From assembly GCF_910592395.1 (NCBI RefSeq), contig NC_088311.1:4962501-5026500 (forward strand): 64,000 bases of DNA, read 5' to 3'. Origin of the DNA: Lineus longissimus. Taxonomy: Eukaryota; Nemertea; Pilidiophora; Heteronemertea; Lineidae. The notes under the pieces were generated by a model that saw only the letters and a list, made by a program, of their open reading frames with translations, was not told the origin of the DNA and did not search any database. Shown one piece after another: positions 12,167 to 53,371 of this stretch (positions are counted from its first letter, which is position 1; each line of letters opens with the position of its first letter). A program made the translations under genes and the position numbers.

Positions 12167-14817
12167 TCACTGCTTTGATTGAGCGGGCATCTCGCAGTAT
12201 CCATACGCCTTTTCGGCATCGTCCGTGTAACACCAGGGTTTACCGGCAGAATCTTGTTCCGTACACTTCTCGTACTTCACCTTCTTGTAGGTGAAGGGAA
12301 AGAAGCAGTTGCCTGTGGTTGACTTCACGTCTGAAATGTCAAGAAGAAAAGTCGGTCATTTACATGTAGCAGCTATACACGTACACAATGCATCATGCAT
12401 TCCTCATAATGCATCATGCATACATTGAAATCCTTACATTTTATTCATCATTGTAGTGTGCTGCACTCACACGTATAGTGCATTTGAGATATTCATGATG
12501 CATTGCTCAAAACTAGATCACAAGTATATAATGTATCCTCTTACTTTCTCTCACTTTCCCTTCTTTTCCACAAGCGTATTCCTTTCCTCCATGAGTCCAA
12601 GTGGCTCCTGCATTAACTTTCTTCTGTTCCTGTGTTAGACATATAGCTGGAATGAGTGATTGAAATTCAGGGATGAATTTTTCAAAATTATAGGAATAAA
12701 CAATGACATAAATGAGTGTTTCTGGGGCTAATCTTGATTAGAACCAGAAACGTTTAATTCAATCAACGTGCAAAGTTGTCATCTCACTATTGCACACGAA
12801 ATACTGCTAAGTTTCATCTAATTATGGGTGTCTAATGGGTGTCTTGAAGACAAAATGTATGTCGCTGATAACGGACACCAATCTTCATTACATGAGAAGA
12901 ATTTGAGACATAAATTTCAGTTTATGAGAATTCACGAGAGCAGGTTAAACAGGGTCCAACTTACCGATACAACGCCCCCACTTCTTGTCTACATCGTAAT
13001 CAGCAGAGGTTGCACACCATGCATCGTCATCAATACATTCGCCGTAGTATTTGTTGTTGTATTTGAAGGGGAAGACGCACTGACCTCCTTCTTTAGTCTT
13101 GACGGTAACTGGAGGTAACAAACAAATGAAAAAAATCTCAATACAATCAGACATAATCAATACATGTACATGTCGTGGTGTCTGCATAGGAGAAATTTGA
13201 TTTGCTAACATCTTTTATGATTCAGTTTGTTATACACATGGTGAACAGTGAAACAACCAATTGTACCCTTGATATAATCATTTGACAAGAAAAAAAATTG
13301 GCAGATAAAACCGGGCAGTGAACCAAGAAACAAGCCTCCTTCCGCCAAACCTTACTGCTAACAGCGATTGAGAAACTGGGCCCAGATGGTTGTTCCAATC
13401 CCTCCCGAACTATTCAAGTAAGATATTGAGCGCTTGCTGCGATTTTTTGCGGCCTTTTGCTTCTTTGCTTGCAAAGCAAACAGAACATGCAGCTGACCAT
13501 CAGCTCAGTAGGCTTTGCTCTGTACTTACTCTCCTTCACTACGTCAACTAGTGCATTCTCATCACAAAAGTATTTCTTTGGTCCATCAATCCACCATTCT
13601 CCGGCATTCTTTAATCTGCCCTGAACTTTACATTGAGCTGGAAAGGACATTACACACTATATGAAACAAGATTCAACGTTAATTAACACTGATGATACCA
13701 CGTTTGGCGAAATTCTTCACCATTTTTTACAACAAGGTATTACAAGGTTCACGAATACCTGTAGTTGCGAAAACTGTATGGTGGTCGGAAGGTGATGGTA
13801 ATAATTTGCTCAGTGATGCAACAGAATGTCCTAATGTCGGTGCAGCCCTGAATCTCATTTGTTTTCAGGGCTGAAGTATGCAGGCAAAGAATCAAGAATA
13901 GCCACATTCGCTTACGTGGGCAGTATCCCCATGTCGACCCGTCCTTGATGGTGCCGCACCAGGGTTTCTCCGTTGAAATCATACATTTCCCGTGGTAGTA
14001 TCCGTTGTAATAGTATGGGAAAACACAGCCAGATCCACCGCCACTACCTCCTGTGGTCATGGAGTAATCTGAAATGAGATTACGAAAGTTAGAAATCGTT
14101 ACAGTGGCTAATTTTCAATCTGTACGATGTAGAGTTGAAACAAAGTCAGCCTCTGTTTGATCAATGAGACGTGATCTCAATCGTTTTGTCAACATTTATC
14201 AACAGATCGGTCATTTAATCTATTTCATCGATAACATCAATTATCTTATATACATGTAGTTCTAGCCTACCTCCTGTCACATTGCCAATGGTTCCATCTG
14301 TGTTACAGAAGAGTTTCTGTCCGCCGAAAGTCCATGCATCACCGGGGTACTTTATCAAACCGGACACGGTTCGGCATGTAACTAGACAGAAGAAAATATA
14401 AAATGATTTCTTTCAGATTTCGGGTTTGAAATGACCGGTCTTATGTCGTGATGCAAAACCTAATTGAAGCTTCGGTCACAGGTTTATCGCTGCTCGCCAT
14501 ACGTATTGGTTCGTCAATCCTACCCACTGAGGGCAACTGAACCTGACGATCATCAACAATTTGGCAAAATAGCTCTAGTAAAAATGATTGTAATGGTGTT
14601 ATCATCACTTTGATCAAGAATGCATTAATTCAATATTACTTTCATCTACCTGGGCAATAGCCCCACTTTTGATCTTTGTCGTAATTCTCGGTTGTGCTGC
14701 ACCATTTCCCCCTATCTCCTCGTACACAATCCTCCTGCCAATGACTGCCATATAAGAACGGAATGACACACCCAGCTCCCCCGCCGCTGCCTCCTGTCGT
14801 CTCTGGATACATCGGGT
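12167..14817 (-). other. Gene A C-terminal block: four FN2 domains alternating with three Cys/Trp modules
   Basis: Exons are FN2 14650-14817, spacer module 14271-14381, FN2 13916-14068, module 13530-13637, FN2 12965-13108, module 12545-12646, FN2 12167-12330. FN2 domains carry the C-x-FPF-Y ... Y-x-x-C ... WC ... W-x-C pattern (for example CVFPFKYNNKYYGEC, then WCATSADYDVDKKWGRC). Spacers are 34-37 residues with C-x(8-11)-G-x-x-W-x(4-6)-FC or YAC, loosely like half a VWC domain. All internal exons are phase 1 at both ends. The last FN2 ends in EMPAQSKQ, a tail that gene B lacks. Confidence 0.88.
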
Positions 14818-17800
14818 CTGAAGAAGAAGAATATTAATAGAAGGTGGAACTTTAGGCATATGTATCCATACCCAATGTGTTGAGATCTTACACGAGAATC
14901 TCAGTAAGCTCAAGGTAAAGTAGCCTGTCATCAGCATAGCATCAATAGCATCTGTCCTCATCAATCCCATTCCACACTTAAAACGACTTGAAACAACGCA
15001 AATCATCAATGACCACCCCTATTTAAAACTGCGACCCCTGGGTCATTAAATTGGTAAAAAGTAATGTTTTTCCGCGTTGGACGACAAAGCAGTCGGGCAC
15101 ATCTTCAGATGGAAGAAGAAGCTATACATTTTTTTATCGAGATCGAGGGCATGTAGTTTCACCACACCTTGAAAGCATTTCTTGGTTGGCTCATGCCATT
15201 TTTCTCCCTTCTTGCACCCTGAAATATACACAAAGCAAATAAACACTGATTGAATGAGTTAAAGAGATTGAAAGGCAACCAAGATAATTCCTTCTCTAAG
15301 CGTTAACCCTGGAGACTGCTGCTGTAATTTTGGGGACGCATGGGCGTTACGGGCGTTCTTTTTTCTGATAAATCAGGTGAAGGCCAGCATCATTACTGGC
15401 AGAGCTTTATAGTAACATCGAAAATTCCTCTTTTGACCATCGGCTTGGTAACCAGAAATATGACATGCATGCTACCGCAAATCTAGAACACACGGCAGCC
15501 GTAAGTTTATCAGGACTTTTTCACTTTCGAACTATACGGATGCTTCTGACATTTCAGACAGTGAAAGAAGATTATTTGCGGAACTGTAAGAAACGTATAA
15601 GCAAATTCACATAACGTGTACTTGTATATACATGTCGTGTAGTGTAGTTTTGCAGATAGAAGGCACATTGGATTTACATGTATGTGAAATCTTCCAACTT
15701 GAAATTGGGCGTTTTGCACGTACAACGTGTACATGTACACCATCATTGTATGTAATTTAAAACAAAGTCACACGTGAAAAGTGCTTGACCTTCGCTGCAC
15801 ATACTCACGATTTTCACAGCGGTTCATCTTCCATTCCTGGTCAGACTGACATCCTGTTTTGAATAGAAGTTTTAAAAATGAATAGTGCATGAAGTTTATT
15901 ATTTTCAAGAGGTTTAACAACTGAGTGCTTGTTTTCTAAGCATTATGTTACATTTAGCACATATTTAATCCTTACTGTGTATCAGTGTCATAGAGTATAT
16001 GCACTGCCACACACCACGGTGATTGATACTTTTATTCCACCTGGATATTTTGTCCATACACAACCTGATTGTAACATACAGAGAGCACCATCTCAACTAC
16101 AAAAAAACCCAAACGTCTCGTAGACATACAAGAAAGTCTACGAAATTCTAATTTCACGAGGTACACATCACAATTCGTCCACTTACTCGGTACACATTTC
16201 TTCTTGGCTTCATCCCATTTATCAGCTCCTCCACATACTGGAATATAATGCAAAGGACTCAGATTTAAGTTAATTGCTGACCGTGCTATAATATATTCAC
16301 GAAACATTCCTCTTGTGATCAACACTGCTATTGCATTTTTAGCTTATCTTATGCCAAGGAAAGGTTAAAGATGTGTTTTCAGTCTGGTATCGACCTAAGC
16401 AAGTGTGGCTTAATCTATACTTGACTTAACCAAGCTCCAAGTTAAAACCTATTGATTTCGACTCAGATCGATACTTACAGTCAGTGCATTTGTGTAATTG
16501 GTTATCCCATAACATGTGACCAGTACAACCTATAGTCGAAAAGAAAAAAGACTTGGGTGTTGTATAAATACGTAAACCTGCCTGTGAGGAGGCGGCCTTT
16601 GCCAATCGCTGCATGGCTAATGCAAATTGAAGTCTCTGAGAACACACATGCTGACAGAGCTCTAAGAGCGAGATTGGACCTATTTGGGGGGAGAGGGCGG
16701 CTTAGATGATACAAATGAACACGCCATATTTTTTTTGAACGAGACATACCACACCTCCATTCGCCGGGCCGCATCAGGAAGCGTGGTTCCAGAAATCGTC
16801 AGAAAATCTGTCCTCATCAGTTGTGTTCACTATTGTTCTCTCTTATGACCTGTTCCTTCATATGCCATTCTTAAAAACATCATGCAGACATGCTCATTAT
16901 TCAAAGAGTTGCTGACTGATGAAGTGAACGAAACAAACTGAACAACCGCATGTTGACTTACGGTCGACACATTTGCGTTGCATTTTGTCCCATTTGGTGT
17001 TTACATCGGGGCAACCTGGAAAGGAAATCGTCATGAATGTTATTGTCGAGGACTCTGCAGCAGTGCTGGTATTACCAATTACACAAGAACTTCAGTGTGG
17101 GTGCTGTCAGGTCAGTACAGGACAGCAGTATAGGACTGGTCATGGTGGTGGAGAAGACCAAACAAATTAACATCGTTCCTGTCCCTTGAAGGTGTGGGTT
17201 TGATCTAAGTTTACATCACTTCGTCATGTTATCAACTGATAGAGAAGGCAACTAATTTTGATAGGTTTATTCGTTTCTTCCTACATTCTGTAACAATGAC
17301 AAATCACCCATTTTCGTTTTTAGAAGCTTTCATCTAGCTGATCCCAATCTCGTATTTAAGTAAATTATTGGATGGCCAGATTTGGATAACTTTAGCTGTC
17401 ACAGCGAGTGTACTTTGCCAGGATTCCGTGACCTTTCTGAGGAGCCTAGTCTACTCACGTGGGATGCATGCTGATTTAACAGTTGACCACTGTGTGTCTT
17501 GGTTCGGGCATCCTGTAATGTGAATGAATAGAATAACGCTCAAATATTACGATCGATAGACATTTCACCTCAAAATTTTATTATGAATTCTGCATGTTGA
17601 TGCCCCGGGTTTAATGTATACAGGCAACATAAAATCACGCATCAACGCCTCAGAGAAGGTAGAATCGCTTCAAAATTTATTTTCACATACAAGCAAATGT
17701 GATTCCAAACTTCTCGTTCACCAGTAACCTTAGTTCTTTTTTATAACAGGTTAATAAGCTTACTTACGTAGGTTGCATTGCTGGCCTTTCCATTTGGTTT

Positions 17801-20800
17801 GAACGTCAGGACATCCTACAATAATTTAAGTGTATGACAATTAAATTTATTAAGAAAAACTATATAGCACAGAGCATGCGTAAACTGCAAAATTTCTGCA
17901 CTCTATATTTTTAAAATTCGCAAAAATTTCTGAAACAGACAAAAATAAATGAGGTATTCACAGTGTCTGATCTGTCTAACTTTGCTTCAATAATAAAAAA
18001 AAAATCGGTCCACTTACTTGGAATACATGATTTACCATCCCATTTGGTGTCCACATCGGGGCAATCTGGAATATGGGTATGGTATCATTTGATATACTAA
18101 GGGGGCAACTATTAAAGCATTTTACAATACACGTAATTTCTTTTCGGGATTTTCGACCTTAATTTGGATCGAGTGTCAAGAATCCGCATCTTTTAGTTCA
18201 TCAGTATAGTGCCAATCAGCTTATGAATGATGGTGTATGCTATCTGAATACAAGACTGAAAGATTAAAATCTCGTGTTTATTGGCTTACAAATGCCCCCT
18301 ACAAGAGACGAGTGGCTCTTTGTCTCTCCGACTTTGACACCCAACTACGACCATATCAATAGATCAGCCAGAGGTCCTTGGTGTCGCCGCGTGGGAAACG
18401 CCCGGTGAAATTGTTTGCAAACGCAAGGGAACCCTCTATCTGTAATCTATAACCAGCGTATTCCCTATTCAAGCTGGTTATAGTCGGGTGCTACACAACT
18501 GAAGGGATAGTGGATCCAAGTGAACGATTGTTGTGTACATATTATACGGAGGTCAACTTATACTCACACAGAACACATTTAACTGACTTGGTATCCCACT
18601 TTTCTTCTGCTTTGGGACATTCTAAACACAGAACAAAAATTTGTTTTATTAAAATTCATTCTTCATAAAACAATAAACAAGGCTTGCTTGCAGCCGAGTC
18701 GGCATAACACCATTCAAACTTTGAAATAGAGGCTAGTTCAATGGCCATAATCAAACACAATCTGTTATTCGAGACACAACGTAAATACATAATGATATTT
18801 TTTTAATTTTATGATACGAGTCCATATATTTTGTCAGCATTCACTGCTAACTCCAAGCCAATGCTACGTCTATTATACATATATATAGAAAGGAAATACA
18901 AAATATTCTCACAGTATACTTACTTGTCTGGCAAGAATGTCCATTTCCATCGAATCCATCATTACACTTACAGGCGTACATTCCATTGACTGCAGCACAA
19001 CTAGCATCTTTATTACAAGCGGGGAAGGCTACTTTCTTCAAGACCCCTTGCCCTGTGCATTGGTACTTGGTTGCACAGTCTGCCAATACCACCGATTTGC
19101 CACTCTGAAATGAACAATTACAGCTATGAAAGTGAAAGCATTTTATCAGCCTATATACATCATCATTTTCATAGGAGATGGATGATGCTGCTCAAGGAAG
19201 GCCCATTGGCCCATTCGAGACTATCGTATCAGATGAGTACTGCAAGGTTGTAAGCGGAATTGCATGTGCTGAGGCAGTAGAAGCGCAGCGTGATATTTCA
19301 ATAACCCTATGATCAGGGCATGCCAGGGACCCACTATCATCATGACTACAGGCGACACAATTCGTGATGAGGGATATATAGGAGCATAGGGCAACGGCAT
19401 GGACAATCAGAGCGACCTCAAACCAATCTCAAAGCAAAGCGTTGCGTGACTGCTGGTAAGGCATACATGGGTACTGTAGTAGCATATTATTGACAGACTC
19501 TCTCAGTCTAGTCCCCAAACATCTGACAGGTCTCATTAAGATGACACGGCGACAGTGAAACGGATTTTTGTAACGATCTTGAACTCACGTCGATATGCTG
19601 TCCGTCACTGACATCACAACCGCACTGCGCTGGAGGTACACAGTCATTTCCAAGTCTGAAGAAGCCATTGTTGCATGTGCAACCATCCTCGGGCTCTCCA
19701 CTGTCACAGTCTTTTGGGGAAGTCCTCTGTTGACAGGTCTTTTCACATGCAGGGTACATCTTTGGGGAGTAGTGAGCATTTGCTTCACATTTCATTGCTG
19801 GATAAAAACATACAGGTCAGGCGTTGTCAATGATTTCGACACAGATGGATGTGTGGTCGTACAATCTATTTTTCGATTATCACTTTGTTAGGAAATGTAC
19901 GTTATCACGTAGTCACACTAAAATGGATGTACTCTTGTTTAACGTCAATTTAAATTGTCATGTTCATAGTCATTCATAAAAATTCGTGCAGTTCGAAAAA
20001 TGACACTTACGACAGAAGTTAGCTCGTCTCCAACTATTTCCAGCACCCTGTTTGGCACATTCATCGGCAAAGGCAGCCAGATTCTTACAGACCACCTCAG
20101 GAACATCCTTGGCTGCAGTCGCCTGCTTAGAGTAGAAACAGGCGTCAAATTCACAGCTGTCTTTGAAACGCTGTACATCCACTAATGCACTGGTGATACA
20201 TGAACCGAATGGACCGTTCTTGCTTGAGATGTAGCCACAGTGGTCATTGTTCACGACTTTTGTGGCCCAGGCTACAGTGCAGTCTCCATTGACATCCGCT
20301 GCTTTACAATTTCTGTGGAAGACAAAAATGGTCATGAAGAAAACCCACACAAAGACACATAAATATGAACCAGATACTTGGAAAATACTAGACATAAAAG
20401 CGACATGTGATATATCGTAGGAAGTTGAGGGAAACATTCAAATTTGAAGCAGTACAGTACACCGAGCGTACCACTCCCAACATATTTATTATATGACTGA
20501 TCTATCTATTTGCATTTGTTCCCTCCAGAGTAACCGACATGACCATTCGTAATGACCTCATGACAAGCACCTTCTTATGGTACTACATTGTATTACTTGT
20601 TTCACGATTGACTACATTTTAAGGTAAATAGGAACTTTTTCCAAGTCAGCGCCCATCGTTGAAGAGTTAGGTGACAGATTCACCCCAACAGATCAAGCCC
20701 GAGTATTACACCTACCCTTGTGTCTGCAGACCAGAATCATCAGGAATCGACCAACTCTCGGAGAAAGTCAACTTGTTAGTCGGCTTTTTCGTTCTCTTTG

Positions 20801-23800
20801 CAACTAAGTCATCTCTTCGGTCGCCATTGCATGTTCCACACATTCCTTCGACTTTGCTTCCCAGTTTTGAGGAAAGGTAGGTCTCAATGAAAGTGTTCCT
20901 GTATGAAGTGACTATACCGCAAGCTCTGGCATCAACGCTGAACTGACGGTTAGCGAAGGAGATCGTAATTGGTGTTCCCATGTTCGTTTGGATTTGCATT
21001 GGGAACTTGCTCTTTGTCCTGTCAATACCATTTATCTACAGAATAGATATTTGAAAAGTAATAGCAAAAAAGTGGGCAACAATGTCTTATCTGTATTTAC
21101 TAGCAGTTTATACACAGTTTTGTTCAGGTGATCTTAAATATTTCCCTATTTCTCTGATAGAAGCAATATGTCCTTGATGAGTTCATACGTGTTGGACTCA
21201 TAATAACGAAATTAAGATATTGATTAACTACACGTAATGTTTCATACCGTCAATCTACATGTACTTTTTTTCTCGGTTTGACGGGATACTTACATAGACT
21301 TTCATGGTTTTATCATTGTATCTGAAGGTCAGGTTCTCGATCATTATATCAACAAGCTTCACATAGCTCACGCGCTTGTTACCCAAATGAATGTTCTTTT
21401 CTTCAACGTTGAAGTAACACTTGGTGCGCTTGTCAGCACCGCTGAGCTTGGTGAACGTGTACTTGCATTTCCCCATGAAGTCGATTCGCGTGCCGTCATA
21501 TTGGAAATAATGGGGATCACCAGATGCATAACAACGACAAGTTTCTGTGGAGAGCATAGCATGATGTATTAAACATACAAATTATATCCAAATGGAACAA
21601 ATGTGATTTCGATAGATCAATAGTAGACAGCATTTCAGAATTTAAACAGAAACTATGGCTTGTCATTTTAAAGTGTAGTCACTTAAGATACACTTGACAA
21701 GTTGCAGATTGTTTGAAACAATGAAAATATGATAATACAAACTCCAATCATTGCCGGGTTAAAATACCCCGGCAATTGGCGGGCAAAACTAATCCGCATT
21801 AAATTTTCAAAGGTGTAAACGCAAATAAGCCGGGCCAGACCCGGCATTTTCTAATGGTGTAAACGGCGCCACTTGTTTTACTCATCGTTGCTGAGACAGA
21901 GTAGTGACAACTGAGACACTTACTAGTTTCACAAGTTCCGAACATAGCGTTGTATTTCTTCGGTGAAGCGCATTCTGCAAGGCAATAAGTAAAGTCCGTT
22001 CGTTAAGAGACCATCTCAAAATTCATTGATGTCGCAAAAGACCTCATAGAGTTTGTCTTTATCTTTACCCTCTCCCAAAGACTTAACATGGTGGTACATG
22101 GCATAATGGATGTTTCTACCAGATGCGTAAAGTAGTTGAAACTATCGAAATCCCGACACCCGCCTTCCACTCCCCCTGTAAAATCACACGATGATACCAA
22201 AATTAGCACTTTATGTATTTTGTGATACCAGTGAGATTGCCCTATGTTGCCAGTGCATTTCGTACATTTTTCTCAATTTCTAATTCAACTCATTAACGTG
22301 AGAGGGAATGTATCGTTGGGTTCTTCTCTCAACGCTGGCTATCTATTTCGCAAGTACACACGTCTCATCACGCTGGAAAACCCCGAGCTAACATTATAAT
22401 AACTTACTCGTGAGGTGTTTCATCAAAGATTAGGTGCACATGTAAAAAACTTACTTCCTACACATTTCTTTCCGTCCCACTTCTGACTTGCCAAACAACC
22501 TGACGAGAAGACATCGAAAATGAATCTATCGTAATATCTATTGGAACCTGAGATTCATAGCATGAGCATGAGTGTATGATACACTGCTGATAGAATTTAT
22601 GGTTTCATGAAGGCAAAAGTACTACGTAGAGTACTACTTCTCTTGTTCCAAACGCTATCGCCAAGGATAAACCTCGCTAAAACTACTACGCTGAAACCCA
22701 TCCTCTTTGAGACCAGGTCAATGTTCGGTTCCCTGGCATCATGATGGCGGGATCATGGATGGATTTGAATAAAGTAAGGATTACCAGCGTAAAACACATT
22801 GTTGGCTACTTACGGACGGCGCATTTTGTTCCGTCCCATCTCTGCTGGTAGTCGGGGCAACCTTGAAGTAACAATAGAGACGTTGTGCATCAATGACGCC
22901 TCCGACAACGACCTTAACGATTTTTGATGTACCAGAACAAAAGAAGGCCTTTCGATGTGGTGACACACCCTATGCTCACGAAGAGGAGCAAACGAATCTC
23001 TTGAGATTTTGTTGATTTAAAACTCGATAAAGTATGGAGTAGAAATTCAGAATGATGTCTTGTACTTACGATCAACGCATTGTTTAGATTGCTCGTTAAT
23101 CTTGAAGCCTGGGGAACATGCTGCATACAAAAAAAGACATGTCCGAGGATCAACAATTTATAGAGTTTTTAAAGTAAAAATTGAAAGAATATGAATGAGG
23201 CATGATAATAAGTTATAAAAACTTAGTTTTTTAATTCATTTGATTCATTAACTAAAATAGTGCTCAATAGTAGAGTTACACAAAATACATGAACTTCACA
23301 CAGTTCAGTTACATCAAAACAGGAATATGGTGATATTGGACAAAAGCAATCACACATAAACCATAAAACATCTGTAAAAAGCTTTTTTTTTGCATTTCTC
23401 GTCAAAGAAACCACTGGACAAGACAGTGTAACACACTGATATATCAGCAGTATGGACTGTGTGGAGATACATGTGGTATTACCATGTACCTTTGAAAATC
23501 TATTCTATCAGTTTTTGATGAATTTGTCATCGGAAAATCTGGGCCAACATGTATAGGCCTACTTATCGAACATTAAAGGTGAAAAAAATATTACTTACCA
23601 ATTGGATCTTGTTCTATAATAAATCAACAAGAAATCAACTTGAGAAGGTTAATTTATTGAAAAAAAGGCAATGGCAAATTATGGGAAGCATTTTGTATTA
23701 GACACTAAGAAGCTTTAAAAGTTCAGTTAACTCTAAGCGTAATTTGCATGCTACACAGACAAATACATGTATAAAAAGGACCATGCATACTCTTGAGAGA

Positions 23801-30400: not shown

Positions 30401-32298
30401 TTCCCTATCATGAAGATGAAGATACCTAGTCCCACAAACACGACTTGGAGAATAGATGCTCCAATTGCCAGGAGATCTTTGTTACACACTTCATCTAAAG
30501 GTACAGCTGTAGATATGACACTCATGTTGCGATGCGGCTTGCCAGTGGGTTCCCGATCAGACGGAACGTAGTTGACGAGAAACATGGAAATTGGGCAGAA
30601 AGCCAACAGCCTTCCTAGGTTGATGGCAAAAGTGTACCTATAGTGACAAAAAATATTATTTTGGGATTCCTAATTAAGATTTAATTCACATTCATATTCG
30701 TGAACATGGACAATTATCATTAACCGCATTCTTAAGATCTCATCAACTGTTGGTTGTTTTTGGCTTTGCTGTAGGTGTCACGATGAGGACATTTCAGTAG
30801 CAGGTCTTTGCATCACAAGGTGATATCAGTTGAAGTCGCAGTGTATTCTTTGTTCTCTAGCCCTTATTAATTTTTGTGGTATTTGATGATTCTCACTTTA
30901 AACACGTTCTTACCATCTGTAATACGACTGGATCTTCAGTGCACTACATGATGTATCGTGAAGCTGCCCGGCCCCGAATATGGTCACATTGGCTTTGATA
31001 AATCCAGTACCAAGAGCTATCAGAATCAGTGCGGTCACAAAGAGGAATGTCGCCACCTGTAAGGATGCAAATAATCAATGATTACCTGACTTTCTGGATC
31101 GACGTGTGATCAAGCTTCAATTTATAAAGAACTTACTAACTACGAAGATTACCTATTTCTCTTGAAGGAGTCTAGTTTGTTTATTTCATGCGATAATGAA
31201 TGCAGGAGGTATACGTTATCATCGGTAATTTTGAATTTGGTTTTGTCATCCAGTCAATCAATGTAGACACACACACCCTTCTCCATCGTCCTCCGGCCAA
31301 AACATACTCTCCCCGCTCACATACGTCTGAAAAACAAGGTTTTCATTTCCATGTGTAACTTTTAAGGTGTGCATATTTGTGTTGGTTGAAAAGCCTACAA
31401 CAACTTTTCAAAACTCAACATTGACCCCAGGCTTTATTTCTACGAGCAATGTGTACCCTCCATGCTTACCGGGATTGAAAATTTCGGTCCAATTCCAGTG
31501 TTGTCTACATAAACTAGAATGGCATAGATGAGTAGAATGACCATTCCAAAGAACTCCATGACGGTTCCAAATAGTATTGCCTTGTAACGTCCAAGGGCGA
31601 TGTCTCCGATAATTCCACCAATCAGCGGCAGAAAGAAAGCAACACCTAAAATACGCAATGCAGATTAACCCAGCTAATCAACGATTTCAATCGGTTTAAA
31701 TGATCAGAAAGAAACAAATTGGCCATTGGGTTGTTAATATCTACATTTACCTGTGTGGACATCTCCTCTTGAATACTAAAGTTCGTGTGGGCAGTTTTTA
31801 ATTTCATTACATGTATATCATGTAGCTTCTACGGAATCACCAAATCCTCGCACGAAATTTCAGAAATATGCTTACTAATTCCGATACAACGGGCTGCTCT
31901 AGTTACCAAAACGAATGCGGTAAGAATCCCCCAAAATATTTACCTGTAAATATGAGAATAATGGCCACCGCCTGGCTATCTGTATACTTCAGGGGGCTTC
32001 CATCCTTCATGTAAAACACGGCAGGAACGAGAATGTAGAAAGCAGCAGAATGGAGACTTTCATGCAGGACGATGCATGTCAGGCCAAAACTACGGTCAAA
32101 ACCGATAGGTTCACACCTCCTCGGGCCTTGAAATCTAATTGATTGGTCATCAGTGTTGTTACCATGACTCCTTGTTTGACCGTCAGCTCCATATGACATC
32201 CTCACCGAATCGCGTTTACCGGCGTTTTTTGCCAAACAGGTGTTCTCGCTGCTTCCATCGAGCAGGCCATCATGTTTCGTGTAGCTGCAGGACGCCAT
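27447..32298 (-). CDS. SLC15 / PTR2-family (POT) solute carrier, PHT-like, 9 exons
   Basis: Exons are 31944-32298, 31470-31645, 30914-31056, 30372-30637, 29863-30056, 29130-29541, 28504-28647, 28174-28302 and 27447-27631 (TAG), giving 667 residues with consistent phases. POT proteins couple proton flow to uptake of di/tripeptides or histidine through 12 membrane helices. Family marks are PLIGGIIGDIALGRYKAI (helix 2-3 loop), the signature GTGFIKANVTIFGAGQ, and the sequence following it (YYRWYTFAINLG), which resembles SLC15A3/A4 more than PEPT1/2. Deviations: the proton-coupling ExxER of helix 1 reads ESLHS (residues 80-84), and GADQ reads GAGQ. The N-terminus carries about 70 extra residues, and a long charged loop (EAEIDDKIAQWTEGG onward) sits between exons 6 and 7. 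The ATG at 32298 is the first in the open frame before helix 1. Transport activity is uncertain. Confidence 0.85.
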
Positions 32299-44200: not shown

Positions 44201-47200
44201 GACATTTGTAAAAGATCGTCAAGTCCTTTATAATTGAGAAATGCATTGATGTTTAGTTGCTCTTATTGCTGTTGTTTCTATTGCAGATTAATGGAATCGA
44301 CGATACAAATAGTAAATTCCCAATGACCCTCAAAACAAAACAAGGGACCGATGTGATAGTCTCCTTTGCTAACCGCAAGTTCACGGTTGATGCCAGCGCC
44401 TGTGGTATGATCACATCGTACAGGGATTCCTTCCTCACAACAGACATCAAATCATCGCTGGGCAAACAGGTTGAGGGAATTTGTGGAACGTGTAATGGCG
44501 AAAAGAATGATGATCTCATTGGCAAAGGAATGAAGAAGTCAGGCAATTTCACAGTGTTTTCCTCGAGTTGGTCTGTTCCTGACGATTCGGGTCTCCCAGT
44601 CGAAGGGTAAGTAGACCTACACACCAGTTCCCGGGTCGAAATCCGTATAATATTGTGTGATTCTTTAATAAGATTCACAGAAAATTTTTCACAGCTTACA
44701 TACATGTACCTTCGTTGCAAGTTTTTTGACAGATTCTCAGTTACAAACCTCACAAAAATCTTGAAACGAATGTACATGACCCAACAATAAAACCATGTCG
44801 GAAGATATAACTAGCCAATCGAATAAAACCGTCGAGTCCTCTCTACGTACATCTGTATCATTACATATACCTACTTGACCCAAAGGAACACGCCACCATG
44901 CGGCAACTTAGCGACAGTTTTTCTAATGTGCGTAATCGCCGTCCCTTGGCTTTTGAAGGCACTGTACATCGGCTGATGTAAATGGTGACTGCTCAGTTGC
45001 CTGGGCCAAGAAAGTGCAGAACAGTAACCACTGTGGTGCCATCACAGACACGAACGGTTCATTCAAGACTTGCATCGCCAGTGGAAGCGTCGATGTAGAC
45101 AAGTTTAAGGAAAGCTGTGAATACGATGTATGTTCTGCCTCGAAAGGTAGCACGGCGGCTAAGGATGTACCCCTAGTTGTCTGCAAGACCTTGGCTGCAT
45201 TTGCTGATGCCTGTGCCGCACAGGGCGCTGGGGGTGTTTGGAGGAGCACCAGTTTCTGCCGTAAGTTACATTGTAAAATCATGCATAGAGCCTATAATAC
45301 CGCGTACTCTTGTCTTTTTGTCATGGAAACAGGCCCTACTTCATGTAAATGTATATCAAAGGTAATGGCGGCGAGTAATTTGAAGCCTGACTTCGTACAT
45401 GTATTGTGGAAAAGAATCTGAACTTCGCAGTCATGCATGCAGTCACAAAACACGAATGCCCCCTCTCACATCACCACTAGGATTCACACCCGAGGCAGTA
45501 CCAATTCGTTCAACCATAAGCTGTTATTCTTTTATCCCCACTAGCCCTGAAATGTGAAACAAATGAATACTACTCCCCAAAGAAGTATGCTGGGTGTGAA
45601 AAGACTTGCGAGAACAAAATGGTATCCACGAAATGCGCCAAGGGCGAACCTGAAGATGGTTGTACGTGTAAGAATAGCTATGTCAGACTAGGGAATAAGT
45701 GTGTTCACCCGAGGGAGTGTGGATGTGAAGTCGGCGATGGTCAGCACCTTGATGTAAGTAAAATGAGGAAACGAGTGACTATATTCCGACGATTACACTC
45801 GGTAAAATGCGATGTTACAAAGACGTGGTTAAAACATAAACTACGTTAGTATTACAAAGAATAAAAAGAACCCCCTCAGTGAATCAGAAATTCAAATTGT
45901 AGATTTCACGAACTGAAAAACAATTAACAGAATTCCGATGGCTTTCACAAGGAATGCATTTTTATTACGAAGTTTGCCACAGTTCCCTAACAGTCACAGT
46001 GAATGCTAGTCATTCTAGTAAGTACATGTAGCAACATCGAAACCATGTATTAGATTCCCAATTCATGCTCATTAGTCCTCCTGATAATGAAGTGTCGTTA
46101 TTATCAAACCTATTTTCAGAGTGGCGAATCTGTGGTACTGGTCGGCTGCAAAACCAAGTACGAATGCTCAGCTGAAAGCGTGTTGAAGAAAGTCGATTTC
46201 CCCGCCTGCCATGATGATGCGACTTGCTCTGTCGTGAAAGGAGCGTACGCCTGCAAGTGTAATGATGGATTTGATGGGAACGGACATGATTGCAAGTCGA
46301 GTAAGTTCAGTACAGTATGTGTCGGATGAAACTGTAAACCGTAGTCCATTCTGGCTGAGTGTATGCCAAGCAAGCCAAGGATGCAATACGCAGATGAAGT
46401 GACATTTCCCGCTGTCAAATGTTCACAGATAAGAAGCTATCAATTATAATCGTATGATGATGCCGATTGTCTCAGTACCTGCTGCGCGGCATGATTAACG
46501 GACTTTGATTCTTAAAACCCAACTTTCAATGGCAAATAATATACTGTAGGTTCTTTTGGTAAACTCGACAGTATGCATCAGTAACGCCAGCAAATATCTC
46601 ATTCTATCAAGTAGCGATTTCTTTGTCAAATACGAACGTCTTTAAGACAGCAATTAGGCACTAAAAGAAACGATACCATGAATCATGAACTGCACACCTT
46701 ACAAACTGTTTGTGTTATAACACAGAATGCCAGAAAGCTGAAGAAAAGTGGGACACGAAGTCATCTAAATGCATTCTCCGTGAGTATGCGTTTTACTTTC
46801 ATCTTTCATCGATTGGGTAAGCAACCTTTTTTTTACAACAACGAAGCCTTCCCCAAGGTCTGGTATGAACACAGTGACAGTCGTCATGGCAAACAACCTA
46901 AAAATGTAGTGTATAGCATGAGGTTGCCTGTCCGAACGCATTTTCCATTACACTCATCGTGGGTTGGGTTAATTCTCTGATTGTGTGGCCTGGTTTTCTA
47001 TGATTTCTAATTACCGATTCCTTTTCCAGGTTGCCCTGACGAAGACACCAAATGGCATATCAAATCAATCTCGTGCATTCCTAGTAAGTTGACTTATTTT
47101 AAAACAAAGCCGTGCGCGGTAGTCATATTATTACAATGATATTTAGTGATATAATCGACACAGATGTGGTACACTGTACATGTATATCTATATTATTTCC

Positions 47201-50200
47201 CATGACCGGTGAGGCCGAAACAAAATTTGAACACACAATTGTATACCGAATTGTTGACCTCCCTTGATTTCAATTAAATTTCAAATGAATATTTTCTCAA
47301 TGTCATCGTTCTACAACCCTGATGAAAGAAATCTATACATGTACAGATTTTCCCGCCTGCTCACAAAGGTCAAATCATTTACAGGATGCCCCGATATTCA
47401 GACTAAATGGGACGGCAAGATATGCGCACTGAGTGAGTAAACTATAATTATTCTGGTTTCAATAGCTTCATCTTCATCTTCTTCTTTTTCTTCTTCTTCT
47501 TGTGAATAACAAAGGAAAGGTTAAAATTTCGTATTTGGATTATTCTGATAGGCCAGCAATCACAGATAAAAAACTGCAGTTGTTGAATCATAAAATGACT
47601 ATAATGAAGACTTTTTTTCAATTGCCGAATGCTATGTAATCTATTGCCCATGCGCTTGCTTCATTTCGTGTCAATAAATTCCAATGTTAAAATCGTATAA
47701 AACTTATCTGTTGTTCCATATCATCTCCTAGGGTGCCCTAACCAAGACGAACAGTGGTCCAGCGTGAAGTCAGCGTGCATTCTACGTAAGTAAACCCAAT
47801 AAATTATCTGCCGAAACGTACCGTAATATGTGCTGTGATCGCAAGTAAGTACCGGTTAATACTGTAATGATGTTGATGGTATCTATGATACGACAAGCTA
47901 AATGCTCATTTGAATAAGCATCTTATAATATTCCTTTTTTTCAGGTTGCCCCGATGTTAACACCAAATGGGACCAGATGCAAGGCAAATGTGTTGACCGT
48001 AAGTATTGGCTGAAACATATATTGTGTTCTTTGTTACTTTGCAAGTGTATTGATGACAAACTGTCTATGGTAATGATGTATATACATGTACACTGTAGTT
48101 TCCAAAAAAATATTAAATGCCGTCCTGTAGTAATGTCATCCTATTTCTTAAATATTCGCTTCTTTGACACCATTTCTCGACTTATGGTAGATGATTATCT
48201 TGGGCTGACTAGCTCCTAAGTCTTAGGATCGCGCACACATAATCCGCCATCCAAATGTGGGATTATGTCTTCAAATTTAGGATAGCACGACACTCCACCA
48301 GCTGTTAAAAGAAGATTCATATCAGGAAGACAGGGCATGGTACGAGAATTACGGTAAAATGTACATGTTTGTTTTATTTTCTTTCGTTCTCAGGATGTGC
48401 GAGTCATATGCAATGGGATAACCAACAGAAAAAATGCACAAGTCGTAAGTATGATATAAAACAGTGACTTTGAAATAAGCAAAACATTGTAAATCAAACT
48501 TCAAAATAAAATCATAAAATCTCTTCCTCAACCGCCTCATCGATAATGAAGCCATTTAATTTTTTTTTAAAGGAAACACCTTTTACCTCTAAATTATCTC
48601 AAATTTGAAGGTAAACAATGTCAAATCGTCAGTGTTTCCCTCCGGGTGATGGTAGTAACGTATCTGTTGCTGTTTTTCCAGGATGTGCGGCAGCTGACAA
48701 GTGGGAAGAAACCAAAAAGAAATGTACACCCAGTAAGGAGGCATTGCAGTGTTTTACTTCAGTAATAATCGGTGGTACCAATTTTGGTACATGTGAATGA
48801 TTGAAGAGATCCTTGGCATTCGTTAAGGTGGCTGTAGGTTCGACCATTGGTGAGGTTGTAGTTTGGACTATCGGCGGGCCAACACTATTTCATATATGTT
48901 TTCGTAAGAAAGACACGTTACCTTTACTAGCATCCCTCCATTCGAGAGTAAATATGTTTATCGCTGGCATGGTAGAGATGAATCAATGATGTGAAGGGAG
49001 GCAAAGAGCGCTGGTTACTTTGCGGCAGCCCGACTGTTATACTATTACAAAAGCCGTTCAACTGGATAACGAGGTTGACGAACCTGTGGATATGGCTACA
49101 AGAAGAAGGCCTGCTAATTGCTGTACCAGGACAAGAACGATAGAATACAACAAACCGTGTCTGATAATTGGATTTATTCAATTTTCAGGATGTCCATCCC
49201 ACCAGGATTGGAAGACTGACAAATGCGAAAACAGTAAATAGTGTTTAAACGCTTGACATGCCTTTTATCATGGACCAAATATACTCGAAACTGGTTTCGA
49301 AACAAAATGGATGCATTTTCGAATGTCATACAGTCATGTAATCATCACTTCAAATTTCACCGGTGTAATTTGACATGATATATTTCGCCTATCACATAAA
49401 GCAACACCGTAGTAGGCCCATAAGGTCAAGAAATTATCGAGTGTTGTAGCCTTATAACTCTTGGCACTTACTTCGATCAACTGTTTTAATGTCTAGGTAT
49501 TTCTGTTCGGATATATCATGCATTGATTGTAGCATGGCATCATATCTATTCTATTGTAGAATGCCCAACGGGAGAAAAATGGCACGATCCGACCAACAAA
49601 TGCTTCCAAGGTACGGTCGATGTTTTGTAAGATTTGACTGCAAAGACTTTCATGTTATAACTAACACAAACTTCCAACTTCCGAGCCAAATACAGTATAG
49701 GTAGATTCATCGTCCACTCTACCATTTTAAGTCTCAAGGGTTTCTAGCATTTGAAAAAAACGTTGACTACCACGATAATCAGATGATTTCTTGCATCCTC
49801 TACCTTAAGTTATCTATGTAATCATCTGTGCTGGGCTAATGCATCTTACTACGGTCAGAGGCAAAACAAAAGGAACTTTTCTCTTAACACTTCTGCACTG
49901 ATTTGCTGGTGTATGGTATGGTATGGATCAGAATCGTACGTTACCGAATTCTCCACCCAAATATGTTCCACCACGTCTGGTGTCGTGTTTTTTTGTGGGT
50001 CTTAAGCCAAAGCTGGAGGGGTTCAAACATATCAGTTGTATTTCTGTAACTGCCTTTCACCCCTTTCAGACGTCATCTATCCAAAGACAGAGGGAGGCAA
50101 TGGCCAGGAGGCTCCCTGTGTTATACCTTTCTTGTATGGCAGCAAATGGCAGGAGGACTGTGTACAGGGAAAAGAGAAGATGTGGTGCTCAACTACGGAA

Positions 50201-53200
50201 AACTATGATGCGGACAAAAAGTGGGGTTATTGCCCTGGTAAGAGAAAACAGTTTTTTTTCCCCAGTGATCAGTCGGTCAAATATTTTGCTGCTAAATCAC
50301 CTGAAATGGTTCGATCACTGATTGCAAACATCAAGGAGAACGAAAATAAGAGTAACAATGCCTAGTTATGGCAATCCTTGCATTGTCATGTCAATATTCG
50401 TAATATGACACTTGTATCGTAAAACATTTTTCAGTTATGTGCCGAACCAAGGGTGGACTGATCAAATTCCCTGGCGATGCCTGGACGGATGACGGGAAGG
50501 GAGTATTCTGTGACACCGATGGGACCATTGGAATGATTACTGGAGGTAGATTTTTTGAAGGGTTATCCAATCCGTGTTCACATCGTGTGCCAGGGATTTG
50601 TTCAAGCAATTTTCTGTCAAAGTCATTTTAGAGGGCTGATGAAAGGTACTCCATCTTCTAAGGCCCCGGATCCATCATTTCTGTTGATTATACCAGTATT
50701 GATGGTGATATTTTGGAATAATAGTTTTATGGTTCTTGGTCATCTTGTTCTCACTAACAAACCAAATTAAATACTATAGAGGAATATAAGTTTCAACAAT
50801 AAAATAAAAATCTGTGATATTTTTTAGGCGAACTGTATGTTTATCCATTTCATGTCAAGCTTTCCAGGACTTAAGGAACTTCACTTTCATTTCAGAATTC
50901 TCGTTAACGACAGGCGGTGATGGCGGTGGAGCTGGGTGTGTATTCCCATACTTATACAACGGACGCTACCACGGAAAATGCGTGATTTCCACCACATTGC
51001 CTTGGTGTGGCACTCTCAAGGACGGCTCAAAGTGGGGATACTGTCCACGTAAGCACATTATTTGCTGATAAACCCACAATGATTTCAGCCAATTAACTTG
51101 GGCTACTCTAAAACTCTTATGATCACCCAAACAATTAATTTGTGATGATTTCTTTTGATTGGAGGCTAGGTGGTAATGTTTTGCAGGCCTGAAAAGTTAC
51201 TTGATAGAACTAAGGCGATATCAGTATAGCTATAACGCATCCTGAAATGACAAGTACTAATTGTGGAGAGTGGTAATCCTTACTCTTCGTTCCAGCTCAA
51301 TGTATGCCAAAGGACGGGAGTAGGAAGAATGCGGGAGACTGGTGGATGGAAGGACAAATGAAGTACTTCTGCGATGAGAATGCAGTCATCGAGGAAATTA
51401 AGGATCGTAAGATGTTGTTTCTTTTTACACTCAACTTACGTGGCTTAAATAATGCGTGCATTATTGGTTAGAGTTTACTCAGATGTCACTCGTATCGGCA
51501 ATGCTTTAGTTTTTTTCAAACATGTGCCTGTAAAATACATATGTACAATAAAATATGCAACTTATATATATCTGGTACAATGTATATAAATTCCAATGAT
51601 GCAGCTTAAGACAATGGCAACTCACATACAAAAAAGATACGATAAGTTTCGGCGATGCACCAAGGAATAGAAAGTGCTTCATCTCTGCTTCGTATTGAGA
51701 TGCCATATGCATGTACCGTCAATATTTCAAAACGATATTTTCTATTGCTATAATTGATGTTATGTTTACCTCTAGTTTCAATCAAGACGAAGGACGGTGT
51801 TCAATGCGTCTTCCCATTTAAATACAACAGCAAGTTCTATGGTGGATGTACTGGTACGACCCCCTGGTGTGCCACCACTGCTGACTACGACGCCGATGCC
51901 AAGTGGGGCCACTGCGCTGGTAAGTTGGGCGCGGGGAGAAGGCCATAGTGAGCTTTCGCTATGCCGTCCGATATATCACATGTTGCATGAGTACACACGG
52001 TCACGCTGCTTTATAGATGACCGCACCACATCGGAAATCCATACCCCACGCTAGTACAGTCATCGAGTGTGCACCGTGGTACAGTGTTTTTATTTGGATT
52101 AGCTAATCCATTGACTGGGACCAAAATATTATATAATAGTACCCAGATGTCAGATCTTATCATAAACAACCGTTGTCCCTGGAACGATAAAAGTGGACTT
52201 TGACCAGTCCATTCAAAATTCGATATCTAAAAAAAAACAGGTCGCATCATTGGTTTCTCTTTATCATTATAGTCACATGCCTTACCCAGGATAAGAAGAA
52301 GGTGAATGCCGGAGCCACTTGGTCACATGGAGGGAAGGAGTACGCCTGTGGGAGGGATGGAAAAGTCAGAGCAAGTAAGATAAAACAAAACGTTCATTGA
52401 CTCTTATTACAAATCATGGTTGAGTGTCATCGACAATTCTGATAAGATTTAGACCAGGTGGTTCAGAATGTGACACATGCGTCCAGGATCAATAATACAA
52501 GGGCTCATTTTGATACATCAGGCTTAAAAATACGTTAGACATCGCTTCCCATGGTACTTTATACTGTCAGGCATGTCTCAAAGTGCTTGGGTATTTACTA
52601 CTCTAGATATAGGCCTTCACACTGCGGTTAAAGTTCATGGGGAGTACCAGAGTACGCTGGCAGTGGCCCTTAAATCACTTTGACTAATCATCCACATTGA
52701 CGGACCATTTGCACCAGCTAAGTATCCAATGCCAGCAACTCCTTCTTGCCACTTCATAAAAATACAAGGCATTATCATTTGAGCTTTGACGAGGGTAAAT
52801 ACTTAAGCTATAACCGCTTCATTGATTACTTCTAAATCGACACAAAGGTATATGTACATGAAAGACTAAAACATTACGTCATGGTCATCGCATGATTGGT
52901 GCCGCCAGCCTATTGTCTAACCCTATTGAACATGTTGAATGGCCATTGTGTGGAAACCGATTTGATCAATTTGCTTTGGTTCATTGAATTGACTAGTGCG
53001 AAACCTGATTGTAGTAGATGTTTGTCATGTTCTTTATTGGGTTGTGTGTAAGATTTGTATTATCAACCAAATAAATCAATTCTCCACTGGCATTCATAGC
53101 ATTCGTGTCGGCGTGTGTGACTGTCCAGTGTGCATGCAGGCCATGTACTACAAACTAGTCTTCACAGCGTGCTTACTTTGGTGCCGGACTTCGTTTGGAG

Positions 53201-53371
53201 AAACTAACATTACTTTTTATTCATATTGCAGACGTGAATACCCCACCTGGTAACTGCCTTTTCCCGTTCAGCTACAAGGGTAACACGTATGAGAAGTGTA
53301 CAGAGGTTGGTTCTGCCGGTAAACCCTGGTGTTTTATCGATGAAGCCGAGAAAGCCTACGGATACTGTTAG
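35238..53371 (+). CDS. Gene B: secreted VWD-C8-TIL / EGF / mini-module / FN2 mosaic protein with a triplicated Cys-rich head (complete model)
   Basis: The model runs from ATG at 35238 to TAG at 53369-53371 in 39 exons, 4,446 nt, 1,481 residues, all GT-AG and in phase. In order: signal peptide MKAPLVIAIIAVIATLIG (35238-35310); a C-type-lectin-like tail piece (35397-35564); three copies of a four-exon Cys-rich unit; four mini-modules (42046-42096, 42496-42543, 42821-42865, 43172-43222); VWD (43689-43939, 44287-44606); C8 (44959-45260); TIL (45545-45753); EGF (46120-46300); nine mini-modules; FN2 block (50070-53371). It is predicted extracellular and heavily disulfide-bonded. From residue 533 on it matches gene A exon by exon; before that the two are unrelated. 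Differences in the core include GDPN for GDPH in VWD. Role inferred only: matrix, mucus, adhesive or immune scaffold. An AATAAA at 53578 probably ends the transcript. Confidence 0.85.
35397..35564 (+). other. Gene B: partial C-type-lectin-like exon
   Basis: This 168 nt exon (phase 1-1) encodes 56 residues whose end, SLMDMTPSRTFAYICEKE, resembles the C-terminal strand of a C-type lectin domain (W/M-x-D ... FICE). The front half of a CTLD and the usual carbohydrate motifs (EPN/QPD, WND) are absent, and only one cysteine is present, so it is unlikely to fold as a normal CTLD. An alternative acceptor nine bases earlier keeps the same frame. Confidence 0.4.
35651..37512 (+). repeat. Gene B tandem duplication, unit 1
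   Basis: This is the first of three ~1.85 kb tandem copies including introns. It holds exons 35818-35844 (27 nt), 36134-36309, 36714-36844 and 37228-37340, with phases 1-1, 1-0, 0-2 and 2-1, so a whole unit inserts in frame. It encodes 149 residues: an EPECKDNPR-like linker, a segment with CQTGFVGQACKCDVKC, then VTCIEKACVKSR, then VTCPKDSELVSCSIYSPWSQ and GNTCVGPSQCKKCRVQAVCI. The last part matches the pattern of the PCSK9 C-terminal Cys/His-rich repeats (C-x(4)-L-x-x-C-S ... TCV ... V-A-x-C). This copy is the most diverged of the three. Confidence 0.9.
37513..39363 (+). repeat. Gene B tandem duplication, unit 2
   Basis: Exons are 37679-37705, 37985-38160, 38565-38695 and 39077-39189. The protein is nearly identical to unit 1, and the introns are also nearly identical, including a poly-C run after the last exon. 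It shares more single-base differences with unit 3 than with unit 1 (for example AAAGATAGTCC, TCCGATGATG and GTTGGTAGCTTC), so units 2 and 3 separated last. Confidence 0.9.
39364..41874 (+). repeat. Gene B tandem duplication, unit 3, with intron insertion
   Basis: Exons are 39530-39556, 39830-40005, 40410-40540 and 41574-41701. Its last intron carries an extra ~650 bp (40890-41541) absent from units 1 and 2. Its last exon has 15 additional bases, encoding five extra residues (MNEEP) after VCIA, and keeps frame. After 41874 similarity with the other units stops and the mini-module exons begin. Confidence 0.9.
40890..41541. mobile_element. ~650 bp foldback insertion in the third unit of gene B
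   Basis: Alignment with unit 2 shows a clean insertion between GAAAACAAA and GCAAGTTTATT. It opens with TTCTAAAATACCT and carries the reverse complement AGGTATTTTAGAA at 41354-41366. From 41371 to 41536 lies a long hairpin with arms of about 77 bp (AATTGAACCC...GGACCTTGGTTG...TTACCAAGACACTC...GGGTGGAGCTAAAAT and complement) and a short loop. There is no coding capacity. It may be one element or two nested foldbacks. Confidence 0.8.
42046..43222 (+). other. Gene B: four mini-modules before VWD
   Basis: The four one-exon modules read DCAPGYSLDVKTDSCVD, VCPDYQQKWDGKECVK, GCIASEKWDGKNCVL and GCPLPNKYNVAFKTCEE. All are phase 1-1 and each is the positional counterpart of a gene A module of identical length. 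The last two bases of each donor-side codon carry into the next exon, so any module could be added or lost without a frameshift. Confidence 0.85.
42583..42605. repeat. Homopolymer G run (>20 bases)
   Basis: It is an uninterrupted G tract directly after a short GT-rich stretch, in the intron after the second mini-module of gene B. Length in the assembly may be unreliable. Confidence 0.9.
43689..46300 (+). other. Gene B core: VWD, C8, TIL and EGF domains
   Basis: VWD exons (43689-43939, 44287-44606) carry AAGDPNYIQYDGQKVEFMGK and CGTCNGEKNDD. C8 (44959-45260) runs from CTSADVNGDCSVAW to STSFC. TIL (45545-45753) has KGEPEDGCTC and CGCEVGDGQHLD. The EGF-like exon (46120-46300) ends CKCNDGFDGNGHDC. 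Lengths of 251, 320, 302, 209 and 181 nt equal the gene A exons base for base, although the residues have diverged substantially. Confidence 0.92.
46726..49610 (+). other. Gene B: nine consecutive one-exon Cys-Trp-Cys mini-modules
   Basis: Exons are 46726-46779, 47030-47083, 47385-47432, 47732-47785, 47945-47998, 48394-48444, 48682-48732, 49189-49233 and 49560-49610. Each encodes 15-18 residues, such as GCPDIQTKWDGKICAL, GCPDVNTKWDQMQGKCVD and GCAAADKWEETKKKCTP. The order corresponds one to one with gene A; only the second differs in length (54 against 48 nt). Position-matched modules across genes are more alike than neighbours within a gene, so the array predates the duplication. Confidence 0.87.
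50070..53371 (+). other. Gene B C-terminal block: four FN2 domains alternating with three Cys/Trp modules
   Basis: FN2 exons are 50070-50237, 50896-51048, 51776-51919 and 53232-53371; spacer modules are 50435-50545, 51296-51406 and 52273-52374. The FN2 domains show CVFPFKYNSKFYGGC, WCATTADYDADAKWGHC and similar. Spacers read C-x(8-11)-G-x-x-W-x(5)-VFC, YFC or YAC. The protein stops immediately after the final GYC of the last FN2. Confidence 0.88.

Follow-up and report, generated by a model that had tools for sequence, protein, structure and literature searches.

Several described systems share parts with the two genes analyzed here. Sea-star Sfp1 and Sfp2, flatworm ap1, and limpet P-vulgata_3 combine VWD, C8, and TIL domains with glycan-binding domains and are held to be cohesive proteins of adhesive footprints; their secretion has been shown, and self-cleavage is reported for one of them, Sfp1 (PMC9382459). 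FCGBP, like the gel-forming mucins and VWF, contains D assemblies of this kind; in its D10 assembly the substitution H4082N, which changes the motif GDPH to GDPN, inhibited self-cleavage at Asp-Pro, and FCGBP variants that stayed uncleaved withstood heat and protease less well (PMC10880436). For F-type lectins, a role in self/non-self recognition is described, as are a fucose motif, HX24RXDX4(R/K), and a cation motif, h2DGx (PMC5712786). In the amphibian PRIT glue proteins, whose heads are IgGFc-binding domains (IgGFcBD), the VWD supradomain has been lost and exon duplication has produced tandem heads; both the expression of these proteins and their presence in the glue have been shown (PMC11237159). 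The genes, which we call A and B, are located in a window of 64,000 nucleotides (nt) from the bootlace worm Lineus longissimus, a nemertean or ribbon worm (NCBI RefSeq assembly GCF_910592395.1, contig NC_088311.1, positions 4,962,501 to 5,026,500 of the forward strand; the window is this whole stretch, and all coordinates below are counted from its first letter). The reading that we favor, and consider probable, is that A and B encode paralogous secreted multidomain proteins of a family that has been rebuilt as exon blocks were gained, copied in tandem, or lost, and that the products are multivalent constituents, cohesive or glycan-binding, of mucus or of an adhesive secretion.

A and B share a scaffold of 25 exons

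Gene models built from splice sites assign 29 exons and 1137 residues to A (minus strand, 24941..12167; ATG at 24941, stop at 12167) and 38 exons and 1425 residues to B (plus strand, 35238..53371; ATG at 35238, stop at 53371). The spliced sequences lack internal stops and are identical, letter for letter, to the NCBI predictions P0001 (A) and P0004 (B); the smallest intron is 202 nt among the 28 of A and 159 nt among the 37 of B. The pairing of heads and scaffolds in these models could be an annotation artefact, with head and scaffold exons on separate transcripts. We consider this most improbable: frame and phase are unbroken across the 29 exons of A and the 38 exons of B, with AG/GT at the junctions, and the pairing of a head with the scaffold recurs on other contigs, both in a V-headed member (D) and in lectin-headed members (vide infra).

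The 25 consecutive exons that are common to A and B encode, in order, four mini-modules (m0–m3), a five-exon core (VWD in two exons, C8, TIL, and EGF), nine further mini-modules (m4–m12), and the series FN2a-Xa-FN2b-Xb-FN2c-Xc-FN2d. In A (minus strand), m0–m3 are located at 21924..23120 (exons 23120-23070, 22861-22814, 22499-22455, and 21974-21924, each of which starts and ends in phase 1, abbreviated 1-1), the core at 18924..21544 (VWD1, 21544-21294; VWD2, 21035-20716; C8, 20312-20011; TIL, 19797-19589; EGF, 19104-18924), m4–m12 at 15168..18621 (nine 1-1 exons), and the FN2/X series at 12167..14817, which ends with the stop at 12167. In B (plus strand), m0–m3 are located at 42046..43222 (four 1-1 exons), the core at 43689..46300 (VWD1, 43689-43939; VWD2, 44287-44606; C8, 44959-45260; TIL, 45545-45753; EGF, 46120-46300), m4–m12 at 46726..49610 (nine 1-1 exons), and the FN2/X series at 50070..53371, which ends with the stop at 53371.

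A sequence-only reading of the window had proposed that A and B share at least 25 consecutive exons in the same order and phases, mostly of equal lengths, with diverged residues, and the comparison bears this out: order and phase agree in 25/25 exons and length in 22/25, including the 251, 320, 302, 209, and 181 nt from VWD to EGF that the same reading had listed. The three unequal exons (lengths in A/B) are m5 (48/54 nt), Xb (108/111 nt), and the last exon (164/140 nt). When the translated frames of the minus half are compared with those of the plus half, 94 match rows are obtained at E<=0.01; some are scattered or connect different modules, and within the 94 rows one colinear series is found whose strongest members have E 3e-35 to 4e-50. 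Across the 945 aligned residues of the shared exons, A and B are 65.7% identical, with 1.67 synonymous substitutions per site (dS; near saturation) and 0.231 nonsynonymous substitutions per site (dN); thus, A and B are old paralogues that are both under purifying selection. The cores align without gaps over 418 residues with 62% identity.

The domain content of the scaffold is that of a D assembly followed by FN2 repeats. In gene A, VWD, C8, and TIL occur in order, and the EGF_3-type exon comes after TIL; in the full protein, VWD and TIL are above the Pfam cut-off and EGF_3 is just below it, with the C8 match (E 1e-11) obtained solely on its single reading frame. In full-length B, VWD is above the cut-off and TIL below it. 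Fibronectin type II (FN2) domains (PF00040) are found as four stretches each in A, B (P0004), and D. The top PDB matches of A (8rde_A, E 8e-196, and 8r0t; residues 229-655) place its core with the D assemblies of FCGBP, the gel-forming mucins, and VWF. The present proteins differ from those in having one assembly followed by an EGF-type exon and, in member D, no assembly. The Pfam lists of A, B, and D contain no IgGFc-binding domain, the head of the PRIT proteins and a domain considered here for FCGBP also.

NCBI already holds these proteins as predictions, A and three of its relatives under the name zonadhesin or zonadhesin-like [Lineus longissimus]. Zonadhesin is laid out as MAM domains and tandem D assemblies. 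A and B resemble it in their VWD and TIL modules; unlike zonadhesin, A has FN2 domains, an F-type lectin, and mini-modules, and the Pfam lists of A and B include no MAM domain and one VWD each.

The heads of A and B

Each gene starts with a signal-peptide exon that ends in phase 1. In A this exon (24887..24941, minus strand, 55 nt) has the ATG, a hydrophobic leader, and a GTAAGA donor, and coincides with the start of P0001; in B (35238..35310, plus strand, 73 nt) 17/18 residues are in common with member D. The two signal exons agree at 8/18 residues, so the earlier statement that nothing matches upstream of the first mini-module does not hold; further upstream, a comparison of 24942-26200 (A) with 34000-35237 (B) gave nothing better than E 0.19.

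The head of A (23836..24613, minus strand; exons 24613-24371 and 24072-23836, both 1-1) is an F-type lectin domain, as had been read from the sequence: it matches the F5/8C-type fucolectin families in Pfam (PF22633, E 4.1e-19; PF00754, E 1.8e-8) and, in the PDB, FBP32 (3cqo_A, E 4.8e-32), the lectin 1k12_A (E 6.3e-15), and 3le0. All four lectin-headed members of the family (vide infra) have H-X31-R-X-D-X4-R together with AVDGN, that is, the His, RXD, and final Arg of the fucose motif, with a His-to-RXD spacing of 31 instead of the published 24, and the cation motif. From these motifs, the head of A would bind fucosylated glycans. Unlike the described F-type lectins, it is fused to a body of D assembly and FN2 domains. 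A microexon of 15 nt (23599..23613, phase 1-1, minus strand, present in P0001) separates the lectin from m0. Elsewhere in Lineus, P0016, which has the top identity to A (53%) among the matches from outside the family listed in one protein search, joins F-type lectin domains to the ligand-binding domain of a Cys-loop ion channel (PF02931).

The head of B (plus strand) consists of three copies of a Cys-rich unit that we call V, each encoded by four exons of 27, 176, 131, and 113 nt (128 nt for the last exon of unit 3, which is 15 nt longer): unit 1 at 35818..37340 (35818-35844, 36134-36309, 36714-36844, and 37228-37340, as in P0004), unit 2 at 37679..39189 (37679-37705, 37985-38160, 38565-38695, and 39077-39189), and unit 3 at 39530..41701 (39530-39556, 39830-40005, 40410-40540, and 41574-41701). 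Apart from the 15 nt inserted close to the end of unit 3, the three pairs of units differ at 2, 0, and 2 of 447 aligned coding sites, compared with 42/1407, 21/1402, and 40/1396 non-coding sites (Fisher p 0.001, 0.004, and 0.0015); these counts indicate recent duplication, with coding parts kept alike by selection or conversion. The Lineus longissimus genome was assembled from HiFi fragments of 12-20 kb (PMC8593623); these are longer than the 6.2-kb block of repeated units, so the triplication is unlikely to be an assembly artefact. The intron before the last exon of unit 3 contains an insertion of ~650 bp (40890-41541) that ends in a 172-bp hairpin (41368-41539, 82.6% self-complementary).

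The triplication that the sequence-only reading described is therefore real; the PCSK9 likeness that it gave to the unit finds no match. The Pfam and PDB libraries both include PCSK9. At E<=10 no Pfam family matches the V unit, and no PCSK9 chain appears among its PDB matches with either a single sequence or a two-sequence profile as query; the sole PDB match of any note is an antibody at E 0.4, which is not meaningful. At the level of sequence, we therefore reject a likeness of the B head to the PCSK9 C-terminal domain. An internal two-fold symmetry of the unit is likewise rejected, because it was equalled by 97/1000 shuffles, and in a structure model of D the pLDDT (predicted local distance difference test) of the V unit is mostly <50, too uncertain for judging the fold.

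Two other descriptions of the heads required revision. An open stretch at 35346..35564 (plus strand), once read as a partial CTLD exon, is judged to be outside gene B: its inclusion would need a 35-nt intron, compared with the minima of 159 and 202 nt in B and A, it is absent from P0004, and it has neither a usable splice site nor a Pfam or PDB match at E<=10; a C-type lectin domain at this position is therefore rejected. Also, phase 1 boundaries had been ascribed to all head exons; this is correct for the three of A (two lectin exons and the microexon), whereas the exons of a V unit are 1-1, 1-0, 0-2, and 2-1, so just the whole four-exon unit is 1-1.

A family of six members

The sequence-only reading had suggested a search for further genes with this scaffold and a list of their N-terminal domains. 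Three protein searches yielded six members with two types of head, all from Lineus longissimus; candidates were limited to proteins of similar length sharing 5-residue words, and two of the searches scored the top 7983 and 8000 candidates, so six is a lower bound. A search with the scaffold alone recovered five members and two weak partial matches among 3272 candidates. A and B lie together on a contig of 25,598,605 bases, the three other lectin-headed members (the trio, C) on another of 19,406,143 bases, and D on a third of 17,976,742 bases. Thus, four members have an F-type lectin head, B has three V units, and D has one; D is the sole relative found for the V unit, and the V units of B and D are 82% identical as aligned. 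A metagenome protein, P0102, has, by its Pfam list, FN2 alone in common with the family.

The bodies vary as well. D (P0104, 634 residues) has a signal peptide, one V unit, m4–m12, and four FN2 domains, and lacks both m0–m3 and the VWD-to-EGF core. The numbers of mini-modules before/after the core are 4/9 in A and B, 4/14, 4/6, and 13/6 in the trio, and 0/9 in D, and the number of FN2 domains ranges from 3 to 5. The cores of the trio are 95-97% identical. In P0002, a relative of A, 12 of the 13 mini-modules before VWD are near-identical copies of one mini-module, an expansion that looks recent from its sequence. In A and B, the blocks that start and end in phase 1 are the lectin exons, the microexon, whole V units, and mini-modules; exon phases come from these two genes, and equal boundaries in the other members would follow from their protein sequences. 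The variation in mini-modules, FN2 domains, and the m0-to-EGF block implies that blocks have been gained, copied, and lost along the whole length of the proteins, in the body as well as in the heads. Of the earlier proposal, a scaffold family diversified by the exchange of recognition modules, the family with two heads on one scaffold stands, and exchange is supported in part at most. The set is small, limited to two heads rather than a wide repertoire.

The loss of the VWD supradomain and the tandem heads created by exon duplication in the PRIT proteins are much like what we find in D and B, respectively. PRIT proteins belong to another phylum and have other heads.

Polarity of the heads

Unrooted trees contain three lineages, namely A, B with D, and the trio. 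The parts of the scaffold disagree about their relations: in the core, A is closer to the trio (identity 0.69-0.70) than to B (0.62), so that A as the sister of B is unsupported; in m8–m12 the opposite is found (A-B, 0.70; A-trio, 0.58-0.60). This disagreement implies a difference in rate or history between the core and the tail. The counts of odd-one-out sites in the core are 70 for B, 34 for A, and 37 for the trio (68, 35, and 41 with another trio member); in the tail (m4, m8–m12, FN2a, Xa, Xc, and FN2d), the counts are 21, 26, and 37 (23, 23, and 39). Four overlapping comparisons of core with tail gave p 0.0005, 0.002, 0.012, and 0.07, and separate branch lengths for core and tail improved the fit (likelihood ratio 19.8, 6 degrees of freedom, p 0.003), with the Akaike information criterion for and the Bayesian information criterion against the additional parameters. 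These results suggest that the core of B, which belongs to the block that is absent from D, evolves fast relative to the tail of B.

The core tree was rooted with three Pinctada, one metagenome, and one amphioxus assembly, and a second run omitted amphioxus. Both runs place B deepest (approximately unbiased [AU] test, 0.76 and 0.80); neither a deepest C (0.33 and 0.25) nor a deepest A (0.10 and 0.06) is rejected by the AU test, and the bootstrap proportion by resampled estimated log-likelihoods (bp-RELL) excludes a deepest A. Because the AU test rejects no root, gain, loss, and replacement of the F-type lectin head are all compatible with the tree, and the rooting does not fix which head is the older.

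We lean tentatively to a gain, in which the scaffold came first, with V units or headless, and a single insertion, in the common ancestor of A and the trio, brought in the F-type lectin cassette. The deepest position of B in both runs is what such a gain predicts, and the lectin heads of A and C are 64% identical, near the 69-70% of their cores, as if head and core had descended together. The head interval of B also lacks a convincing lectin remnant: in a tblastn search to E 5, the lectin-head matches at E 0.10, 0.18, and 0.33 are all on the m0 exon, the remainder have E>=1.3, and a non-lectin stretch of P0045 matches 35246-35404 (the signal exon of B and the CTLD-like stretch) with E 0.12. 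However, the root is not significant, a faster core in B would by itself draw B toward a distant outgroup, and the tail, for which there is no outgroup, is unrooted.

A replacement, in which an ancestral F-type lectin head gave way, between the signal exon and the first mini-module, to a V unit in the line of B and D, with later triplication in B, is possible and somewhat more doubtful. The lectin occurs in 4/6 members, 6 of the first 18 columns (the signal peptide) are invariant across the six members, and in A and B both heads are located at one and the same 1-1 boundary; also, the V head is older than the split of B and D (82% identity), and the copies in B are much younger, as D has one. 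Yet three of the four members with a lectin (the trio) closely resemble one another and count as one lineage, and this history, too, depends on a root that the AU test does not fix. That both heads stood in tandem in the ancestor, with one lost in each line, is quite unlikely; the 1-1 phases of the two cassettes would let them stand side by side, but 0/6 members have both, and just as B lacks a convincing lectin remnant, the head interval of A lacks a convincing remnant of V (best tblastn match, E 4).

The VWD self-cleavage motif

At the start of VWD (first strand), A and the three other lectin-headed members have GDPH (4/4), as FCGBP does, whereas B has GDPN. Given the inhibited cleavage of FCGBP H4082N, B is predicted by analogy not to cleave. 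Among the proteins examined, the 23 sites of the form GDP/GDS-x-Y have His in 19, Asn in 3 (including B), and Tyr in 1; the motif state of B is thus uncommon, not unique. By counting, the Gln that assists cleavage in FCGBP, 12 residues past the His, corresponds to Met in the five members with a VWD (5/5), so even A may cleave just partly.

One might go further and propose that the type of head tracks the VWD switch, that is, lectin-headed members keep the GDPH unit and V-headed members have it disabled (B) or lack the core (D); that V is a new family of Cys-rich domains kept unchanged in B by selection or conversion; and that the whole is a nemertean-specific platform. We regard this wider proposal as somewhat unlikely.

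Surroundings in the window

A and B diverge, as had been described; they are not immediate neighbors, because a gene resembling the POT/PTR2 transporter family lies between them (minus strand, approximate limits 27450..32310; PF00854, E 8.7e-10 when two reading-frame pieces are joined; the single pieces have no Pfam match and no useful PDB match). Upstream of A, 25739-26197 is a foldback element of ~460 bp with terminal inverted repeats and 20-bp internal repeats. A dispersed repeat (9860-9967 and 55095-55203, 74% alike) flanks the A/B region on both sides. The remainder of the window includes a 35-bp unit repeated six times in tandem (10219-10433, 98% matches), a thioredoxin-domain exon (5377-5475, plus strand; PF00085, E 2.2e-8), and, downstream of B, exons of a receptor-like gene (57856-61330, minus strand) that match FN3 three times and, below its cut-off, an Ig-type domain once.

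Proposed function

The layout of these proteins is a signal peptide, a head, mini-modules with Cys pairs, one VWD-C8-TIL-EGF assembly, nine mini-modules, and alternating FN2 and X modules. From this layout we infer a secreted protein in which the VWD assembly would be a structural unit, probably self-cleaving in the lectin branch (GDPH) and staying uncleaved in B (GDPN), the mini-modules may act as disulfide-stapled spacers, and the V units would bind some target of their own. In the structure model of D, the mini-array forms nine consecutive hairpins (block pLDDT mostly 71-82), a shape suggestive of a stiff spacer. The best matches of A among solved structures (55 distinct sequences, E<=0.001) are FCGBP, fucolectins, the FN2 domains of fibronectin and MMP, VWF, and mucins. 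In another nemertean, the proboscis, a sticky-mucus organ, up-regulates homologues of fucolectin, VWF, and mucin (PMC9132205); these are other genes in another species. The adhesive-footprint proteins are a close parallel in their VWD-C8-TIL modules and glycan-binding domains, with two differences: 'fibronectin type' occurs 0 times in the main text that describes them (PMC9382459), and their secretion is demonstrated, that of A and B predicted.

Alternatively, A and B could be lectin-type pattern-recognition molecules of soluble immune recognition and not components of a structural secretion. The recognition role described for F-type lectins would be consistent with this, and the lectin head alone would be enough for it; however, D assembly, mini-modules, and FN2 make up most of each protein, and the VWD-C8-TIL relatives in other animals are components of mucus or adhesives. 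We consider an immune role unlikely and retain a mucus or adhesive secretion as the probable one.

Several observations weigh against a cohesive, glycan-binding secretion. The terms zonadhesin, von Willebrand, VWD, fibronectin, and mucin do not occur in the main text of the one lineid mucus proteome paper that was searched (PMC11768458). The Pfam lists do not include C8 for the full proteins A and B, the F-type lectin loop is seven residues longer than in the published motif, and the place of the assisting Gln in VWD is taken by Met. Outside the mini-array of D, the structure models are poor (mean pLDDT 46.2 and 34.3). Finally, the predicted roles in secretion and binding are read from sequence.

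Implications

A literature search for combinations of F-type lectin, VWD, FN2, and zonadhesin-like proteins, and for Nemertea, found no description of the A/B family. The proteins combine familiar parts in an unusual way. New here are the extent of the family, as far as it was recovered, the remodelled body of D, the altered motif of B, and a head polarity that the trees leave open. The family provides a clean natural case in which symmetric-phase exon blocks are added, copied, and dropped while the body of a secreted protein stays in register. Both states of the VWD self-cleavage motif occur in paralogues that are ~10 kb apart in one genome, and B naturally carries the substitution that was made in FCGBP in the laboratory; the two genes thus offer a natural pair for asking what Asp-Pro cleavage does in mucus-type proteins. 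For ribbon worms, whose mucus and proboscis secretion are little studied, A, B, and their relatives are named candidate components.

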